Positions 38,551-48,931 of a stretch of DNA of 64,000 nucleotides are shown here, piece by piece. The translations under genes were made by a program, and so were the position numbers. The stretch is from Helicobacter sp. TUL (GTDB lineage Bacteria > Campylobacterota > Campylobacteria > Campylobacterales > Helicobacteraceae), in NCBI RefSeq assembly GCF_002287135.1, contig NZ_NESU01000004.1, positions 1 to 64,000 of the forward strand. Direction: 5' to 3'. How positions within the stretch are numbered: position 1 is the first letter of the stretch; each line of letters opens with the position of its first letter. Below the pieces are notes generated by a model. That model ran no database searches. It was not told the origin of the DNA and saw only the letters and a program-made list of their open reading frames with translations.

Positions 38551-40038
38551 TTAAATTTTATTTGCATTCATAATATTTATACACCTTTGATACACGCTTT
38601 TATTGTTTATAATGACAATTGTTAACTCTTTCTTGGTTCTTGTAATAGCTTGAAAAAGCGTTTCAATTGGAGGATAATGAGATGCTGCTTTATACTGAAG
38701 TTTGTTATCCTGTGTATAGTAAAAGTCTTGAGTGATTGCCACTACAACCCTATCATATTCTTGTCCTATAGCTTGATGTGCGCTTGTCTTAGAATTAAAT
38801 CTTATGGCATCTAAGTTCTCTTCTGTAAATAAACTTGTTGAAAGATAAATATATTTCCAATCATTGCTTTCTAGATAATCTATGTATCTCCCTGCTTCTT
38901 GTATATCTTCTGTATAGAAAATAGATATATTTTTATAGTCCTGTCCTGTCAAATTATCACCTTTTAATTTATTAAAATCAAATAGCTTCCTGATAAAAGA
39001 ATACAATTCTTTATTGTGTCTAATTTTGTTTGTTAATTCAGAGCGAATTTTTGCTTTTTGCTTAATTTTTCCGACCACTTCCTCAGCATTGTTCTTTTTA
39101 TTAAGTCTTTGTCTCACATCATGTGAAAAAATAAGTATGCTTTCACTTAATTGCTCAAAAATATCATCAATTTCATTACCGATACGCTGTGCTTCATCAA
39201 AAATTACGACATCATATTTGACATTATTATTTTTTAATAGACTATTAAAATCTTTAATTGAAACGATATTCATGCCATTATCGTTTAATTTATGAACACC
39301 ATCATTTATCAAGGCACAATGAACTACGATTACTTTATAATTCTCACGTATAAGTGTTCTTGCAATATCATAAGTTAGTAGTGTTTTCCCTGTTCCAGCA
39401 CTGCCTGAAATTGAAAATATTTTATGTTTGTCTATATTTGTTATAATTCTCTTTTTAATCCCCTCTTGATGATCTGTAAGAAAGTATTGCTCATTTAAAA
39501 ATTCAATAGTATTATTAAAAGGAGAAACTAAGTATCGTGTTGGCACAAACAACTGATCTAGATGCTTGTTTACATCATCCATGTTTGCTATAATGTCTAG
39601 CATCTTTTTTATAGTTATATCAACAATACTTTTTGATTGATTATTGTAATAGTAAAATTGTTGCTTACTAGCAATAAAAACATAACAATATACTTTATCT
39701 CTTATTGCTGATAAATAATAATAATTTCTTTGAAGCTGCTTTACAATCTTATCCTCTTTAATTTCTTCATGTTTTAATTCTATATTTACAACAGCATTGC
39801 TTCCAATTTTTAGCAAATCGAATTCTTTACCAATTTGTGGTATCTGATAGCCAACATAATAATTTTCAAAAATTTGTAATTCTGAAGAGCTCTTTTTCAT
39901 AAGATTGCATAAAATATTAATATCTTCCAATTCATGTTTTTTGCACTTTGCAATATTCAAACAATGAGTCACATTTGCTTTATCTACCAAACCATATTTA
40001 ATTATATTGGCAAGATTTAATAGGTTTTGTTTAGACAT
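38551..40038 (-). CDS. Nuclease-helicase fusion (PD-(D/E)XK-like N terminus, DUF2075-type SF1 ATPase)
   Basis: A 495-residue protein of two parts. The N-terminal third looks like a PD-(D/E)XK nuclease: D74 in GKEFDLLKIG followed by E87-L-K89 in NIELKHEE. The rest is a superfamily 1 ATPase: Walker A GSAGTGKT at 212-219, DEAQR at 281-285, the later QAIGQEYDRVVVAI and the C-terminal QAITRTKKELTIVI arginine-finger region. Such proteins are common in defence islands, usually of unproven role. It starts one base after the stop of the small nuclease gene, so it belongs to the same operon as the R-M pair. It is low in the AGATTC word, in keeping with foreign origin. Confidence 0.75.
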   Translation of the reverse strand: MSKQNLLNLANIIKYGLVDKANVTHCLNIAKCKKHELEDINILCNLMKKSSSELQIFENYYVGYQIPQIGKEFDLLKIGSNAVVNIELKHEEIKEDKIVKQLQRNYYYLSAIRDKVYCYVFIASKQQFYYYNNQSKSIVDITIKKMLDIIANMDDVNKHLDQLFVPTRYLVSPFNNTIEFLNEQYFLTDHQEGIKKRIITNIDKHKIFSISGSAGTGKTLLTYDIARTLIRENYKVIVVHCALINDGVHKLNDNGMNIVSIKDFNSLLKNNNVKYDVVIFDEAQRIGNEIDDIFEQLSESILIFSHDVRQRLNKKNNAEEVVGKIKQKAKIRSELTNKIRHNKELYSFIRKLFDFNKLKGDNLTGQDYKNISIFYTEDIQEAGRYIDYLESNDWKYIYLSTSLFTEENLDAIRFNSKTSAHQAIGQEYDRVVVAITQDFYYTQDNKLQYKAASHYPPIETLFQAITRTKKELTIVIINNKSVYQRCINIMNANKI

Positions 40039-40569
40039 TTAATTGCTTTCTATCATTGGCAACCCAAGTTTTTGCAGTGGAATGTAATTAAAATAATACT
40101 GACATCGCACACTAATAATATAATCTAACACATCTTTATATTCAGGCTTTCTAAACCAATCATTTAAGAGATAAATATATTCCACCTCAACATTTGCTCT
40201 AGAAAATAACTTTTGGTATTGCTTTTTCTTAAAATCACAAGTTTGCAGTTTCTCGTCCGCAGATCCTTCTACACTTTGAAATTTACATTCAATAATATGC
40301 AAAGTATTATTAATGATTACATAAATACTATCATCAGGCAAAAGTTTTCTAGAAATGCACTCTTTCCAATTAATGTCTAATTCTTTTAAAAAATCATAAA
40401 GTTTGTGCTTTTTAAAAATCCTTGCTATTTTTTTATTGTTAAAAAATACCTCTTGCTTTTCGTTTATTGCATAGTCTTCTTGTTGTGATATAAACATTGC
40501 TAAATCAACTTGCCCCTCAAAAATTAATCCAGTTTGTGTATTGCCTCCACCCATTCCACCTTGTATCAC
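40039..40569 (-). CDS. Small PD-(D/E)XK endonuclease-like protein beside GATC R-M
   Basis: A 176-residue protein starting with GGMGGGNTQTGLIFE, a glycine-rich N terminus seen in some short restriction-endonuclease-like proteins. The catalytic pattern is visible: PDD at 78-80, then IIECK at 92-96, followed by SVEGSADEKLQT, together a classic PD-X13-E-X-K nuclease core. Its start overlaps the methyltransferase stop by 4 bases and it ends one base before the helicase gene. It could be a second restriction enzyme, or the effector of the nuclease-helicase. I cannot name its target. Confidence 0.7.
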   Translation of the reverse strand: MIQGGMGGGNTQTGLIFEGQVDLAMFISQQEDYAINEKQEVFFNNKKIARIFKKHKLYDFLKELDINWKECISRKLLPDDSIYVIINNTLHIIECKFQSVEGSADEKLQTCDFKKKQYQKLFSRANVEVEYIYLLNDWFRKPEYKDVLDYIISVRCQYYFNYIPLQKLGLPMIESN

Positions 40570-41384
40570 AATAATCCTTTTATATTTAAATCTTTTATTT
40601 TTGAATATATGGTTTTAAAATTATTTTCTAACTCCATTTTTCTTTTTATAGATATATCTATAAATTCATTTTCTTTCTCTATACCTATAAATCTTCTTTT
40701 AAGCAAATTTGCTGCAATTCCAGTGGTAGAGCTCCCGCTAAATGGATCGCAAATTACAGAATCCCCATTGCTTGCCATTAAAATTAAACGTGCAAGCAAA
40801 GCAAGAGGTTTTTGCGTAGGATGCTTACCATTTACTTTTTCCCAAGGAGCGATAGCAGGAAAAGTCCAAACATCTCGCATTTGTTTATTGTCATTTAATT
40901 GCTTTAAAAGTTCATAATTAAAAATATGTTTATGTTTAGCACTTTTTCTAGCCCAAATAACCTGTTCTGTAGAATGCGTAAGATACCTACAACTAAAATT
41001 TGGCGGTGGATTAGTCTTTTGCCATGTAATGATATTTAGAATCTTAAAATCAAGCTTTTGCAAAATCCTACCAAGTGAAAAAATATTATGATAAGTTCCA
41101 CTAATAAGAATGCTACCGGTATCTTTCAATGCAAGCTTTGCATTTTGTATCCAAGTAAGATTAAAAGCATCTATTTCATCTATATTGTCGCCCTTATCCC
41201 ATTGCCCCTTATTTACGCTTACAATTTTTCCACTTTGAATACTCAAACCATCATTTGATAAAAAATAAGGTGGATCGGCAAATATCAAATCTATTTTGTC
41301 TCTAAAGCTTGGCAATATCTCATTGCAATCCCCTTGATAGAGAGAAAATAAAGCATCCTTACTAGCAAAAGTAGCATTAGACAT
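40566..41384 (-). CDS. DpnA/HpyIII-type adenine-N6 methyltransferase (GATC)
   Basis: A beta-class DNA methyltransferase of 272 residues that probably methylates adenine in GATC. The catalytic motif DPPY is at 37-40 (IDLIFADPPYFLSNDG). The stretch ITWQKTNPPPNFSCRYLTHSTE and NGKHPTQKPLALLARLI are very like DpnA of the DpnII system. The AdoMet-binding CDPFSGSSTTGIAA lies near 213-226. The ATG at 41384 is chosen for its AAAGG 8 bases upstream and an 8-base overlap with the endonuclease stop; a start 10 codons earlier is possible. H. pylori has a related GATC enzyme (HP0092). Confidence 0.88.
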   Translation of the reverse strand: MSNATFASKDALFSLYQGDCNEILPSFRDKIDLIFADPPYFLSNDGLSIQSGKIVSVNKGQWDKGDNIDEIDAFNLTWIQNAKLALKDTGSILISGTYHNIFSLGRILQKLDFKILNIITWQKTNPPPNFSCRYLTHSTEQVIWARKSAKHKHIFNYELLKQLNDNKQMRDVWTFPAIAPWEKVNGKHPTQKPLALLARLILMASNGDSVICDPFSGSSTTGIAANLLKRRFIGIEKENEFIDISIKRKMELENNFKTIYSKIKDLNIKGLL

Positions 41385-42216
41385 TTTTTTTAACCTTTGA
41401 TACAAATTCATCAATATTAGAGAGATTGTAAATTTCTACTTTTTTATAAGCCTCTGCTAGCTTATTTTTAGCTTCTAACCACCCCTTTCCATCTGTTATC
41501 CAGATAAATTCATATTCATCAAAAGTTTCAAATTTTACAACCAAATCTTGATAAGCTCTTGCAACTTCATTCAATTTACTTCCCCCACTTGTATAAAAAT
41601 TACATTCTATACAATAAGTTTTATCAGGAGTAAAAATTACAAAATCAAATTTTTTTACATCATCACCAAAAGTTTTATAAAGCTTTGAAAATTCACCAAT
41701 ATAAACTTGCTCTTTAAAATCTAAGCCTGCCTTTGTAAAAATATTACTTATTATAGCCTCCATCACACTACCACCACGATTTTTTCGTGCATTTGTGTCA
41801 AGACCAACTTCTATCCCAAAAACAAAATCGTTTAAATCTTTTATTTTCCTATCGCTAAAAATTTTATCCAACCCACTTTCACAAATAAACTTATAAATTT
41901 TTTGCGGTTCTGTTAGATAAGAATTCATATCACACACTTTATTATTCTCATCCAACAATTGCTCATTACTAGACTTTCTAATAGCAATTAACAAAGGCAA
42001 TACTTGAAAAGCTTTAGGATACTCATCAAACAACACTGTAATCTTTTCTTGCAATTCACATTGCTGCACACCGAGCAGAAAATTAAGATGATTGAGTGAA
42101 ATTTTTACTTTATCTACATTTTGTATACATTTTTCCCAATCTACATAAAAATCAAGAGCTCTATTCGTGGGTTGCAAAGAACTGACAAAATCATCAAAAC
42201 ATAATACATTCTTCAT
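41377..42216 (-). CDS. DpnII-family type II restriction endonuclease (GATC)
   Basis: Cleaves unmethylated GATC, by homology to R.DpnII. 279 residues. The similarity is strong in GIEVGLDTNARKNRGG (134-149), FDFVIF (190-195), YCIECNFYTSGGSKLNEVAR (201-220) and FIWITDGKGW. The putative catalytic residues are D191 and E204. It precedes the methyltransferase in the transcript, and only 18 bases lie between the distal copy of the guaA-end repeat and its start codon. Without the DUF262 insertion it would sit directly behind guaA. Confidence 0.9.
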   Translation of the reverse strand: MKNVLCFDDFVSSLQPTNRALDFYVDWEKCIQNVDKVKISLNHLNFLLGVQQCELQEKITVLFDEYPKAFQVLPLLIAIRKSSNEQLLDENNKVCDMNSYLTEPQKIYKFICESGLDKIFSDRKIKDLNDFVFGIEVGLDTNARKNRGGSVMEAIISNIFTKAGLDFKEQVYIGEFSKLYKTFGDDVKKFDFVIFTPDKTYCIECNFYTSGGSKLNEVARAYQDLVVKFETFDEYEFIWITDGKGWLEAKNKLAEAYKKVEIYNLSNIDEFVSKVKKNV

Positions 42217-42233: not shown

Positions 42234-42268
42234 TTCCCTACTCCCACTCAATCGTGCCTGGTGGTTTG
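42234..42268 (-). repeat. Distal copy of the 35-bp guaA-end direct repeat (putative att site)
   Basis: Thirty-five bases here are identical to 46252-46286, which encode the last ten codons and stop of guaA plus seven bases beyond. On the minus strand this copy reads AAACCACCAGGCACG then ATTGAGTGGGAGTAG. Flanking bases on both sides differ from the guaA copy, so this is a bounded direct repeat and not a long duplication. It is the pattern left by site-specific integration at a gene 3' end. Confidence 0.85.
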
Positions 42269-42315
42269 AGACAGAATTTGATTTGCAAGTTCTATGCTTT
42301 GATTTAGAAAGTGGT

Positions 42316-44529
42316 TCATTTGATAACTCTGTCCTCATCAATTAACTTTAAAATTCTATCAAATTCATTAAAAATATTACTGCCTTTTTCAAGATTGATT
42401 GGATATTCTTTTTCGTCAAAGTAAATCTTTGATTCCATACTATTGCATAAAACTTCCATATCATCTAAAGAAAAATGTGGTGACAAATCAAATTTATCTC
42501 CATATTGTTTATCACCACATTCATAATCTGAAACTTTTAAACCTTTATCTTCACAATAGCAGTAGAAACCATAATCAAGCAAATCTTTTACATTTGTTAT
42601 ATTTCTTAAACCGGGTAAAAGTTCAACCTTATTAACACTATACTCCAGATAGAAGTATCGGATTCTAGAATATCTTTGAAAAGTCTCTTTTCTCTCATTA
42701 AGGAAATCAAATAGTGCTGACTCTCCAATTAAAAGTTGCTCCCACCATTCTTTTTGTGATAAATCAGTTTTTTGTTCAATTATCTCTTGCATTTTATCGA
42801 TTAAATTTTTACCTTTGCACTCTAGCAAAGTGTCTAAAAACTGCTTGAAATAAGGCCAATTTGAATCATTTTTATCTCCTTTAAGAATCCAATTTAAGGC
42901 TTCCCTATCTCTAAAAATATCATAGGGGGAATTGCCATAAAAGTAATTTGTATAAGAAAAACTAAAATCCCCTATACATAAAAAGGCTCTTTGAAAAAGC
43001 GTAAGATTCTTATCTAAAAATCCCTCCTTATCTAAAATTTGCATTGTTATATTCGCATATTGCTGAAATTTATATAGGTTTGGTTGTTTTAAAAATTCGG
43101 ATTTTTTGCTATAAGATTCAAAATCAAACTCTTCATCACTAAAATCAAGGAGGAAATCCACCCAACCTTTTAAAATTTTATGCTCACTTGTCTGGTTGAG
43201 TATTTCCTCCCAATTTTCTCCTCCCTCACGACTAGCCAAAATCAGTTTTGCTTTTCTTGCTTCTAAATGGTAAATATTGGAATGAAAACTATGTGTAGGA
43301 CTATTTGCTAAAAATTGATAAATATTTTGATGTCCTTGCGAGAGATGTTTAAATAATCTAAAAAATTGGGGTATATGCTCTTCTGGTTTATCAAGGCGAT
43401 GATTTTCAATAAAATGCCTACACACTCTTAAATAATCATTAAATGCAGATTTATCAATATTCTCTACCTCTATATTTTCTTTCATAAAAAATAAAATAGA
43501 GAAAAAATAGCAAATATCTGGATAGCTCAATATTTTATCAAAAAAATAGGAATCCTTTATTTTTAAAGCTTCCTTAATTTCTAGAGTATCAAATAAAATA
43601 CATAAATTGATTACCCTATTAAGTAATTTGATATTCTCGATATCCTGCAAAGGTTTATAAAATTCATTTACCTGCTGATTAGGATTTTCAATAGCTTTTT
43701 TAATATCTTTAGATTCTATTTCCTCCCTTTCTAATGCAAAAAAGAGAGTAGCATAATGAAGGAAATTACACCCTCGTGTATCAAACTTTTCTGGATTTTT
43801 ACTATCAAAGAAATAATCACTCCAATTGGTATCTATATTCTTTAAAAGTTCTTGTTCTTTAGAGATTTTAGAATCTTTTTCAATAAAAGACTTAAGGTTT
43901 TCATATTTACTAAGCTGTTTGCCTCTTGCATTCATTTTGATATATAGCTCTTCACCAAGCTCAAACTTCCCCATATCAAATAAATCAAAGGTGATACTAT
44001 CTAGATTTTCCACAAGTTTTTGAATATCTTTTTTATTCTCAACTATTTCAAAGATTAAATCAAGCATATTTAGCATTGCTTTAATAGTGGGGTCATTATT
44101 GAGATTTTCTGCTTTCTCAAACTCCCCACCTTTATTCCTAATAGCTTCACTTGGTTTTTTGTTTAAATCAAAGTCTTTTTGCAATAAATTTTTGCAAAAA
44201 TTTGCAGAGCTTGTGCGCGTGTTGTAAGAAAACTTTTTCAACAAATCTTTTATTTGCTCCAAACAATCTGCTTTTTTATAAAGGTAAAAATGTAATAACC
44301 AAAGCGTTGTAATACGCTGTTGTCCATCAATGAGCAAAAATTTATCATTTTCTTGGTAGCCATAAATAAAATCGATATGTAAGGATTGCCTTTTGCCGTT
44401 TAATACATTAAAGATTGCAGATAAAAACTCATTGGCAATTTTACTTTGAGACTTTCTGCCCTGTGCGTAGTCTCTTTGTAATATAGGAATTTCAATTCTA
44501 TATTTTTCTAGCAATTCTTTGAGATTCAT
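42316..44529 (-). CDS. DUF262 (GmrSD-like) protein, large partner
   Basis: A 737-residue protein whose N terminus is a DUF262/ParB-like NTPase domain: IPILQRDYAQG at 14-24 and IDGQQRITTLW at 67-77, the defining motif of the GmrSD/DndB-like fold. FELGEELYIKMNARGKQLSKYE (near 190-215) is the second DUF262 signature. The C-terminal half is helical and lacks an obvious HNH (DUF1524) motif, in contrast to its partner. The gene starts inside the stop of the upstream DUF262 gene (4-base overlap). A defensive role against modified or phage DNA is likely from family and context, but unproven. Confidence 0.82.
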   Translation of the reverse strand: MNLKELLEKYRIEIPILQRDYAQGRKSQSKIANEFLSAIFNVLNGKRQSLHIDFIYGYQENDKFLLIDGQQRITTLWLLHFYLYKKADCLEQIKDLLKKFSYNTRTSSANFCKNLLQKDFDLNKKPSEAIRNKGGEFEKAENLNNDPTIKAMLNMLDLIFEIVENKKDIQKLVENLDSITFDLFDMGKFELGEELYIKMNARGKQLSKYENLKSFIEKDSKISKEQELLKNIDTNWSDYFFDSKNPEKFDTRGCNFLHYATLFFALEREEIESKDIKKAIENPNQQVNEFYKPLQDIENIKLLNRVINLCILFDTLEIKEALKIKDSYFFDKILSYPDICYFFSILFFMKENIEVENIDKSAFNDYLRVCRHFIENHRLDKPEEHIPQFFRLFKHLSQGHQNIYQFLANSPTHSFHSNIYHLEARKAKLILASREGGENWEEILNQTSEHKILKGWVDFLLDFSDEEFDFESYSKKSEFLKQPNLYKFQQYANITMQILDKEGFLDKNLTLFQRAFLCIGDFSFSYTNYFYGNSPYDIFRDREALNWILKGDKNDSNWPYFKQFLDTLLECKGKNLIDKMQEIIEQKTDLSQKEWWEQLLIGESALFDFLNERKETFQRYSRIRYFYLEYSVNKVELLPGLRNITNVKDLLDYGFYCYCEDKGLKVSDYECGDKQYGDKFDLSPHFSLDDMEVLCNSMESKIYFDEKEYPINLEKGSNIFNEFDRILKLIDEDRVIK

Positions 44530-46196
44530 TTATTCTCCTTTGTGTATCTTTTTAAAGACTCTTTGATAGCTGCAAGATAATCCTCTTGGTCTTTTTGCTC
44601 AAAAATATCAGGATTACTCTTGTTTTCAGAAAATACTTTTTCAAACACTTTTCTTGTAGCAATGGGAATGAGTTTGTCCTGTTCGCCGAGTTTCTGTATT
44701 GCTTTGCGTTTTTGACTAAATATTTGATTGCCAATTCGACTATTTGAATCTTTGTCAAGCAATGTGAGATTTTGGATTGTATGTAAAGTTTCATCGTTTT
44801 TAAAATTGTCATTAATTTCATTAAATAATTCATCGGCAAAATTAGATTCTTTGATGCTTTGTTTAATTTCTTGCTTGAGCTTATCATCATCAATGTATAA
44901 TAAAGTTTCCTCAAGCCATTGAGTAATACTTTCATTGTCTTTGCCTTTTATACTTTTAGAATTTTGAGCGTAAATATGCTCTAAACTCCATTGCTCCAGC
45001 ACAAAACGATTGAATTTAAAATATTCATTGGAACTTTCCTCACGAATAAGATATTCCAAATTAAAAAGTAAGAGAATCTCTTTTATTTTTGCATTATCTT
45101 TTTTATACCGTAGTTGCTCCATATTTTCAATCTTTGAAATTTTATTTTGAATTTTTGCTAAAAGCTTTTGCGAAAATAATTCTTTGTTGGTATAATTTTT
45201 CCATTCTTTATAGAGGGAATAAATATTTTCTCCACTTAAAATCAAAAATCCAAGATAGTGAAAAATTTCTCTATCTATTTTGTCATTCCCATCTCCACTT
45301 GCAAAGCCAGAGAGTGTACTGATTGCATTCTCTAACTCACTCCATTGGTCATTGAGTGTCCCATTTTTATAGCATTTGTAGAAATATTCAAACAAATAAT
45401 ACTTTTCTTTAGAATAGGGAACAAGTGATTTTAAATATGCCTCAATTCGTTGAATATCATCTTTTAGAATTTTGTTCTCTATATCTTCTTTCTCATTAAT
45501 TTTATTTAATACACAATATCTAAAATCCCTATTTTTTCTCGCTTCAATCTCGCTTTGATACCAAAGTTCTGCCCTACGTTTCAAATCATCGGAATCTAAT
45601 TCATCATTTTTACTCAAAAATAAGGCTTTAATATTTTCTGCTTCTTCTAAAGGGATTTTTCCAATATTCAGGCGAATAAAGACTTCATTTTCATTTTCTT
45701 TGGGGGCTATTTCATACCAGAGAACTTTACATTTATTGAGCAATGTCTTTAAGAATTCATCTTTATCAATGTTTTCATCTTTGAAAAATTTTTGTATAAC
45801 TTCATAGGCTTTATGAAAATGGTAAAAATCTATATTTTCAACTTCTTTTTTGCTTTTATCTTTGATATTTTTCAAAAAATCAGTGCTCTTGAGACGAGTT
45901 TTATAGGAAATATGAAAGAAATCTTTATTTTCAAGGAATTTTATGATTAAAAATATTGTCGTTAATCTTTGTTGCCCATCAATGATTTGATATTCTTCTT
46001 TATTGTTTTTCACAACCACAGGCTGTAGGCAATAAAAATCAGGTTGATTCTGCATTTGTGCGAAATCACAAATATCTTGCAACAAAGCTTGAACTTCTCT
46101 TTCACCCCAGCGATACCCTCTTTGATAGCTTGGAACAATAAAGCTTTTGTCTTTTAAATCCTCAATGGCTCTTAAAGATTGATTTTCTTGATTCAT
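44526..46196 (-). CDS. DUF262-DUF1524 (GmrSD-like) protein, nuclease-bearing partner
   Basis: A 556-residue protein. The N-terminal DUF262 domain has VPSYQRGYRWGEREV at 21-35 and IIDGQQRLTTIF at 71-82, then NENEVFIRLNIGKIPLEEAENIKA near 168-191. The C terminus carries a DUF1524 HNH-like nuclease: WSLEHIYAQN at 403-412 and, about 75 residues later, NLTLLDKDSNSRIGN followed by FSQKRKAI. This is the type IV restriction (GmrSD, SspE-like) architecture. It is the first gene of the pair, 55 bases behind guaA. The pair is probably translated at a fixed ratio because of the ATGA overlap. Confidence 0.85.
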   Translation of the reverse strand: MNQENQSLRAIEDLKDKSFIVPSYQRGYRWGEREVQALLQDICDFAQMQNQPDFYCLQPVVVKNNKEEYQIIDGQQRLTTIFLIIKFLENKDFFHISYKTRLKSTDFLKNIKDKSKKEVENIDFYHFHKAYEVIQKFFKDENIDKDEFLKTLLNKCKVLWYEIAPKENENEVFIRLNIGKIPLEEAENIKALFLSKNDELDSDDLKRRAELWYQSEIEARKNRDFRYCVLNKINEKEDIENKILKDDIQRIEAYLKSLVPYSKEKYYLFEYFYKCYKNGTLNDQWSELENAISTLSGFASGDGNDKIDREIFHYLGFLILSGENIYSLYKEWKNYTNKELFSQKLLAKIQNKISKIENMEQLRYKKDNAKIKEILLLFNLEYLIREESSNEYFKFNRFVLEQWSLEHIYAQNSKSIKGKDNESITQWLEETLLYIDDDKLKQEIKQSIKESNFADELFNEINDNFKNDETLHTIQNLTLLDKDSNSRIGNQIFSQKRKAIQKLGEQDKLIPIATRKVFEKVFSENKSNPDIFEQKDQEDYLAAIKESLKRYTKENK

Positions 46197-46251
46197 TTTT
46201 ACCCTTTTATAATTTCTCTAAATTTTACAACAAAAATTGCAGCATATTACA

Positions 46252-46286
46252 TTCCCTACTCCCACTCAATCGTGCCTGGTGGTTTG
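46252..46286 (-). repeat. guaA-proximal copy of the 35-bp direct repeat (putative att site)
   Basis: Identical over 35 bases to 42234-42268. It covers the final guaA codons (KPPGTIEWE and stop), so guaA keeps a complete reading frame on this side. The strongly conserved C terminus of GMP synthase explains why it can serve as a stable target. Confidence 0.85.
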
Positions 46287-48931
46287 GAAGTAATGTCATA
46301 CACCACGCGGTTTATGCCCTCTACTTCATTAATGATACGATTAGACACAGATTCTAAAAATTCGTGAGGCAAATGCGAAAAAGTCGCTGTCATTCCATCA
46401 AGCGCTTCTACTGCTCGCACACAAATTGTGTTATCATAGGTGCGGTTATCGCCCATTACCCCCACGCTTTTGACATTCAAAAGCACACAAAACGCTTGCC
46501 ACACGCTATCATATAGATTCCACTTATGCAACTCTTCTATAAAAATGCAATCCGCTTCTTTCAAAAGATCCAAATCCGCTTGATTGACTTCTCCCATAAT
46601 ACGAATAGCAAGTCCTGGTCCTGGGAATGGGTGACGCATAAGCATAGATTCTGGCATACCAAGCTCTCGCCCCAAAGCCCTCACCTCATCTTTGAAAAGC
46701 TCCCTTAGTGGCTCGATTAGCTCAAATTTCATCCATTCAGGCAAGCCCCCTACATTGTGATGAGATTTTATCGTTTTGCTTGGTCCTTTTACGCTCACAG
46801 ATTCGATTACATCAGGATACAGCGTGCCTTGTGCGAGGAATTTTATCTCGCCATTAGCATTATGTTTTTTTGCCTCTCTTTCAAAAACCTTGATAAAAGT
46901 CTCACCGATGATTTTACGCTTACTCTCAGGATCTCGCACACCTTTAAGCAATCCCAAAAACTCTTCACTTGCATCAATGGTGATAAGTGGCACATGCAAG
47001 TTTTCTCTAAACATTTTCTCCACCGCTTCTCTCTCGCCTTTACGCAGAAGCCCAGTATCCACAAAAATAGGGATAAGGTTTTCCCCAATCGCACGATAAA
47101 GCAAGGTAGCTACGACGCTAGAATCCACCCCACCACTCACCGCACATAGCACCTTGTGAGGTTTAGCTTTTGGCGATACATCGTGGAGCTTGTTTTTTGC
47201 TTCGTCAATAGATGCTTTAGCCTTATCTGTATGCCCAAATGCACAGCTTGTCAAATGATCGCACACAAGCCCCACAGACTGCATAAAGGCATAAATCCCT
47301 GTGCTTCCTACAAAGCTAAAGCCTCGCTTTTTGAGATCATTTGCGATCGTATCAGAAAGTGGCGTATGTGTGGGAATCTCCTCCAAACTCTCGAAATGAT
47401 TGATAATTGGTGTATTATCTACATAATCCCAAAGAAACTTCGCAAAGCTCCCAAACTCACGCTCAATCTCTAAGAATCTTTTGGCATTGTTGATAGCAGA
47501 TTCTATCTTGGCACGATTGCGGATAATATCTGGATTTTCCATAAGTTCTTGTATCTTTGCCTCATCATAAGTGGCTACAATATGAGGATCAAAGTCATCA
47601 AAGGCTGCCCTAAAAGCCTCACGTTTTTTAAGTATCGTGATCCACGAAAGCCCTGCTTGCATACCCTCTAGCACAAGTTGCTCAAAAAGTCGCTTATCAT
47701 CGTGCTGTGGAATGCCCCACTCAAAGTCATGATAATCTTGATAAAGTTTTTGTGTGGCTTTATCAGAGGCATCATACCCTCGGTAAATCCAACCGCATCG
47801 TTGTAGTGGCTGTGTAGTCGTCGCTACATAATCCAAAGCTAACTCCACCATATCACCACATACCGCACCTTTTTCAAAACCAAGTTCGCTAAAAACCTTT
47901 AGCCCCTTTTTGTCGTGTGTATCCCATTGTGTGTGGAAGCTCTGTGCATTTTCAAATTGCATAAGCGTATCTAAAAAAGATTGCACTACTTCTTTTTGTG
48001 TTAGATTCCTATCGATGATATAACACTCAAAATTGCACCGATAGCCGCTTGTATCCTCTACATACACACAAAAGCCAAAGGCACTTACATTTCCTACATC
48101 ATCTTTTCTAGCAAAAAAATGCTCTGAATTATGAATGCGTTGTTTTAGCGTCGTGGCAATATGCTCTAATAATTTTGCTCCCATAAATCCGTGTGCTTTT
48201 GTGAAGCTCTCTTGCCATAGGGCAAAAATTTGCTCTTGTTGCGCACAATCCTTGGTGCGTTGGAATGTGGGTGTTTGGGATAGTATCCCTGTGATTTTAC
48301 GAATCTTATCTATCTCATAGGTGATAAAATTTTTCATATTCCAGCTTGTGTCTGCTCTGCAAATATTCACCGCGAAATTTTTGAGAATCTCCCCACCACA
48401 CTCGCTATGCACGACTTCAGGGTGAAACTGCAAGGCATAGATTTGACGCTTTGTGTCTGCTATGGCGCAATAATGTGTATTGACACTTTTGGCTAATTCA
48501 CTAAAGCCTTGCGGAATTTTTTCTACCTTATCAGCGTGACTCATCCACACAATAGAATTATTTTTGACATTTGCAAAAAGTGCTGTATCAGGAGCTAGAA
48601 TCTCTAATTGTGCCTTGCCAAACTCCTGCTCTTTGGCTCGCACCACCGCACCGCCAAAATGATACGCGATATATTGCATACCATAACAAATCCCAAGCAC
48701 AGGAATGCCAAGCTCAAAGACTTTGTTATCAGGCTTATACGCTCCCTCCTCATACACACTCGCAGGACCGCCACTTAAAATAATGCCCTTAGGATTCTTA
48801 GCCTTGATAGAATCTATGCTTTCAAAATAAGGCACGATCTCGGTATAAACGCCAAACTCCCGAAGTCTCCTAGCGATAAGCTGCGTGTATTGACTCCCAA
48901 AGTCAAGCACTAACATTTCAACATTATTCAT
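46256..48931 (-). CDS. guaA: GMP synthase with inserted GNAT-like and Tag (3-methyladenine glycosylase I) domains
   Basis: Makes GMP from XMP and glutamine, but is 891 residues against the usual 510-525. The glutaminase domain (1-195) has C82 (GICYGMQ) and H170/E172. The ATP-pyrophosphatase domain (about 572-891) has SGGVDSS at 599-605 and the normal dimerisation tail. Between them, within the linker, lie about 360 extra residues. Residues 215-375 look like a GNAT acetyltransferase fold ([13 protein letters not shown] and FSELGFEKG). Residues 377-571 are a complete Tag glycosylase: [37 protein letters not shown], and the zinc ligands C379, H401, H559 and C563, with E422 as the base-excision glutamate. 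All active residues of the three recognisable enzymes are intact. H. hepaticus also has an oversized GMP synthase, so this is likely a lineage trait. Confidence 0.92.

Follow-up and report, generated by a model that had tools for sequence, protein, structure and literature searches.

A probable GrwAB-type pair of DUF262 genes within a guaA-anchored array of restriction cassettes in Helicobacter

We found that two overlapping genes of Helicobacter sp. TUL, here called A and B, very probably encode a two-protein, modification-dependent (type IV) restriction system of the GrwAB type, an assignment made by analogy that rests on architecture, gene order, motifs and motif spacing, the Vibrio cholerae proteins being compared by their published description. 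The genes lie in the 64,000-nucleotide stretch of DNA that was analysed (the window). Such a defence pair is of an already known kind and not a new one: the suggestion in the initial annotation of a new kind of system is not supported, as GrwAB has the same architecture and order (PMC12137116), and A-B extends two-protein GrwAB-type restriction enzymes to Helicobacter. The more novel and less expected part is the array downstream of guaA in which the pair stands.

Both open reading frames were recovered where the initial annotation had placed them, with A transcribed ahead of B and a 4-bp overlap between the two (Table 1). Upon searching Pfam, A matched GmrSD_N/DUF262 (E 9.8e-30) and GmrSD_C/DUF1524 (E 1.8e-7, residues 359-507), and the sole domain match of B was GmrSD_N (E 2e-24). 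The IDGQQR motif is present in both proteins (residues 72-77 of A and 67-72 of B), and EHIYAQN with the asparagine pair N476/N485 occurs in A and is absent from B, in agreement with the earlier claim that only the first-transcribed gene carries the DUF1524 motif. These residues are strongly conserved: DGQQR is kept in 27/27 A and 25/25 B homologues, and each of the 27 A homologues also retains H407, N476 and N485, with the two asparagines spaced by 9 as in GrwA, whose H-N distance (90) falls inside the range of the A homologues. No DUF1524 match was found by Pfam in the 25 B homologues. A hidden nuclease in the C-terminus of B was rejected, since Pfam matched nothing there in these homologues and a PDB fold search gave none beyond SspE (E about 1e-3). 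In the B model (mean pLDDT 77), a DUF262-like N-terminus is followed by a long helical region and then by C-terminal beta strands for which the PDB gave no match.

Table 1. Features of the A-B locus and its flanks, in window positions
Feature	Position	Strand	Evidence
guaA, anchor gene of the array	46256..48931	-	
Direct repeat copy 1, end of intact guaA, 35 bp	46252..46286	-	
Gene A (GrwA-like), DUF262 + DUF1524 His-Me nuclease, 556 aa	44526..46196	-	ORF and Pfam
DGQQR of A, residues 73-77, R77 = GrwA R81	45966..45980	-	Invariant in 27 homologues
EHIYAQN of A, residues 406-412, catalytic H407 = GrwA H431	44961..44981	-	H407 invariant
Asparagine pair N476/N485 of A = GrwA N521/N530, spacing 9 in both	44742..44771	-	Invariant
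A/B stop/start overlap, ATGA, 4 bp	44526..44529	-	
Gene B (GrwB-like), DUF262 at the N-terminus, long unassigned C-terminal part, 737 aa	42316..44529	-	ORF and Pfam
DGQQR of B, residues 68-72, R72 = GrwB R86	44314..44328	-	Invariant in 25 homologues
Remnant, first 14 codons of Tsp45I-type REase gene, overlaps B stop codon	42278..42319	-	tblastn, 13/14 identical
Direct repeat copy 2, truncated 3' end of guaA, border with DpnII R-M cassette, 35 bp	42234..42268	-	
DpnII-family REase of the next cassette (F14)	41377..42216	-	Pfam E 1.5e-92; cassette recurs in other arrays
N6/N4 DNA methylase of the DpnII cassette (F8)	40566..41414	-	Pfam

GrwAB was described in 2025 as a pair on VSP-II of V. cholerae (Nat Microbiol, PMC12137116), in which GrwA is a DUF262-DUF1524 protein and GrwB, the second gene, combines DUF262 with a long unassigned region. 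Its defence needs both proteins, is modification-dependent and targets phages carrying 7-deazaguanine or sugar-modified hydroxymethylcytosine, and the mutants GrwA R81A, H431A, N521A and N530A and GrwB R86A are inactive (PMC12137116). A-B has the same gene order, with the nuclease gene first and the DUF262 gene with a long region second, and residues R77, H407, N476 and N485 of A and R72 of B match those five positions. Both pairs are wide but sparse in distribution, and they differ in host and setting, A-B being found in Helicobacter within a guaA-anchored array of restriction-modification (R-M) genes. The R-M genes around the pair, like the match of the A model to DndI, SspE and BrxU, also count in favour of a restriction system of the GrwAB type.

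When surveying genomes for co-occurrence, we find a relative of B encoded in 21 of 399 Campylobacterales genomes, with A immediately upstream in 19 of the 20 informative ones, decayed copies included; the remaining informative case (L058) is a divergent DUF262 pair, and one genome (G363), whose contig ends inside B, was left out of the count as uninformative. Plasmids gave a similar picture, with A present in 17/17 records that contain B and adjacent in 16, the A and B matches of NZ_CP136442 being 1.4 kb apart, and these pairs span Bacteroidota, Actinomycetota, Bacillota, Pseudomonadota, Spirochaetota and Campylobacterota. Among IMG/VR viral contigs, A was upstream in all 14 clear B matches (L214-L227). 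The initial annotation had proposed a nuclease-bearing and a nuclease-free DUF262 protein acting together in defence, and the survey supports this, since B stood with A wherever the pairing could be judged; a B that is only rarely paired, named there as the outcome speaking against it, was looked for and not found. A partnership kept across six phyla argues that B is mechanistically essential and not a local add-on. A solitary A without B occurred once (L243), which suggests that some A-type proteins work alone. Furthermore, the distance matrices of A and B are correlated (r = 0.96; 0/9999 permutations; r = 0.93 without near copies), a correlated divergence that is partly shared host ancestry. 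Both genes are under purifying selection, with dN/dS of 0.11-0.25 in each across four Helicobacter loci. Within B, dN at these loci is 0.015-0.045 over the first 240 columns and 0.056-0.114 over the remainder, and in the wider homologue set, identity with B of the window falls to about 10-25% past residue 240. As the less constrained and fastest-diverging part, the C-terminal region of B would be the likeliest seat of target specificity.

A different identity for the pair would be TgvAB, a two-gene DUF262 system of V. cholerae VPI-2 reported in 2024, in which the short nuclease-free gene comes first (PMC11411939); B would then correspond to TgvA and A to TgvB, in reversed order. Both systems consist of two DUF262 proteins, one with DUF1524 (PMC11411939), both are found among R-M genes, and TgvAB needs the DGQQR of both proteins and the nuclease. 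TgvAB-type pairs were seen on Vibrio, Klebsiella, Pseudoalteromonas and E. coli plasmids, the E. coli plasmid pair inside a type I R-M locus. As a separate observation, about 850 plasmid records from Klebsiella, many of them conjugative, carry TgvA-like genes, and both Klebsiella plasmid loci examined (L086 and L100) are TgvAB-type pairs. The gene order nevertheless differs, the nuclease gene being first in A-B, and B homologues are 660-912 aa long against 426-483 aa for TgvA-like proteins, in line with the report of the GrwAB authors that GrwB and TgvA are distinct outside DUF262 (PMC12137116). A DUF262-domain tree that took in five plasmid TgvAB-type pairs resolved A, B, TgvA and TgvB as four separate groups, with A+B (97/91) and TgvA+TgvB (93/85) on opposite sides of a branch, so that neither A with TgvB nor B with TgvA forms a group, and orthology was rejected. 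AU tests of a common clade were marginal (B+TgvA, p-AU 0.052; A+TgvB, p-AU 0.033), and for this reason the data suggest, but do not prove, that the two pairings arose independently. Taken together, we regard a reversed TgvAB as very unlikely.

The single-chain DUF262-DUF1524 enzymes GmrSD, BrxU, SspE and DndI share the domain order and fold of A, and the A model (mean pLDDT 75) matches DndI, SspE and BrxU at low global TM-scores. As the best PDB matches are DndI (9jfl) and SspE, which read phosphorothioate, A could be conceived as an enzyme of this sort that needs the phosphorothioate marks of its host, B then being an accessory. The single-chain enzymes, SspE and DndI included, differ from A in working without a DUF262 partner, and no dnd or ssp genes adjoin the A-B pair. 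A search by DndC alone found this gene absent from the window genome (G000) and from 13 of 14 other carriers, that is, missing in 14 of 15; its absence from the window genome makes phosphorothioate sensing by A-B unlikely, and as a reading of the pair we hold it to be very improbable. PADLOC matched the pair to neither Dazbog nor PD-T4-2, which also contain DUF262. A toxin-antitoxin-like arrangement, in which B would hold the nuclease toxin A in check, would share the strict pairing and translational coupling seen here and would suit a B without nuclease. It sits poorly with the invariance of the DUF262 motifs in B, with the solitary A of L243 and with GrwB R86A, which loses protection and does not become toxic (PMC12137116), and we consider it very unlikely.

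Under the GrwAB-type reading, for which GrwAB, TgvAB, BrxU and SspE serve as models, A and B would form a complex that senses a base modification on incoming DNA, which in tested GrwAB is hypermodified cytosine or 7-deazaguanine. NTP turnover at both DGQQR pockets would gate the His-Me nuclease of A, which would then cleave the modified DNA and so presumably act against phages. B, through its fastest-diverging long C-terminal part, may be the likelier carrier of target specificity. The initial annotation had hinted at a division into sensor (B) and effector (A); a strict split of this kind is not borne out by the analogous systems, and because GrwAB and TgvAB require the DGQQR of both proteins, A and B probably both join in NTP-gated sensing.

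We next consider the surroundings of the pair. A-B is flanked by a perfect 35-bp direct repeat of the guaA 3' end (0 expected by chance), and a 301-bp DNA search found two guaA 3' copies in this genome, both within the window. The proposal that the pair is the sole cargo of a small element thus stood as far as the flanking repeat is concerned, whereas no recombinase ORF was found between the window repeats, a Tsp45I remnant follows B, so that the interval is not a clean two-gene element, and the repeat turned out to be one scar of a wider guaA array pattern. A conventional integrase-borne island at guaA was likewise rejected, since the flanking repeats are present but a recombinase inside is absent, and the 35-bp repeat adjoins a truncated Tsp45I gene. 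At the related loci of H. japonicus (L038) and G375 (L039), an ATGA overlap of the same kind links B to a Tsp45I gene that is longer but damaged, and a shortened B is followed by a Tsp45I fragment in H. cholecystus (L037). With Tsp45I copies following B at these three loci, A, B and Tsp45I probably once formed a single unit, of which the R-M part has since eroded and A and B remain intact in all four Helicobacter loci. The guaA gene of the window itself encodes 891 aa, with an insertion between the amidotransferase and synthetase parts that resembles, by eye, an acetyltransferase and a 3-methyladenine DNA glycosylase, and the length of its open frame varies widely among relatives.

Across Helicobacteraceae, a strict search found partial guaA 3' copies downstream of guaA in 9 of 92 genomes with guaA, and the control, copies of the purF 3' end, in 0 of 87. 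A closer look found such copies with R-M cassettes at 14 of 78 guaA loci; several of these were included on account of their hits in the strict search, and one of the 14 (L149) is a 22-bp match only. The other copies measure 31-294 bp and reach to about the guaA stop codon. Stacked cassettes occur downstream of guaA in the window (42234-46286) and at L133, L135-L140, L147, L160, L162, L164 and L174. Between the guaA copies we observe mostly two-gene R-M cassettes in guaA orientation; for instance, the G437 array holds Tsp45I, an HNH-type system, HaeII and CfrBI, each with methylases. Several cassettes recur at different positions across genomes, namely F9-F10, F3-F4, F14-F8 (the DpnII R-M genes) and A-B: the window order is guaA, A-B, guaA' (a partial copy), DpnII R-M, and that of H. 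japonicus is guaA, a methylase (M)-containing pair, guaA', a second M-containing pair, guaA', A-B-Tsp45I. Four array-bearing genomes (G036, G432, G437 and G443) encode one tyrosine recombinase each, none of them near guaA. As a side observation, a 7.3-kb stretch made up of guaA and its array is 99.7% identical between G437 (L133) and G449 (L135), two genomes whose genus codes differ; this may reflect recent transfer, a matter of naming, or contamination.

On balance, these patterns tend to favour a reading in which the guaA 3' end of Helicobacteraceae serves as the anchor of an array that resembles an integron but lacks its own integrase, a dedicated collection of restriction systems. Its R-M and GrwAB-type cassettes, all in one direction, would come, go and change order from one species to another, probably through homologous recombination at the guaA copies. 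Natural transformation followed by such recombination would be the simplest mechanism. The nearest precedent comes from H. pylori, in which R-M genes inserted with a long duplication of the target (Nobusato et al. 2000, cited in PMC4978471 and PMC1643837) and likewise lie beside a long direct repeat of it. The guaA loci differ from that case in the repeated use of a single target, the guaA 3' end, which gives rise to arrays, in a right boundary that stays close to the guaA stop codon as repeat length varies, and in cassettes that are shared and reordered between species. Full-text literature searches, with many subscription papers outside their scope, returned no description of guaA arrays in Helicobacter. 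The array provides a specific explanation, open to testing, for the way in which species of Helicobacter gather and swap so many restriction systems without dedicated integrases.

Finally, other genes recur near the pair or its relatives. Downstream of the DpnII R-M genes, the window ORFs at 38551-40038 and 40039-40569 comprise an AbiO/Nhi-like helicase (PADLOC AbiO, E 1.7e-148, full length) and, ahead of it, a small PD-(D/E)XK-like ORF. Among the loci L089, L092, L090, L097 and L087, 3'-5' exonuclease genes are found directly upstream of the pair at L089 and L092, and WYL-domain regulator genes lie near several pairs of the A-B or TgvAB type. Additionally, five Campylobacterota loci (L046, L047, L050, L052 and L058) have, beside or near an A-B-type pair, a gene that starts like the DUF2779 protein of L046, the sole copy scanned, for which the DUF2779 Pfam match is E 2.2e-45.
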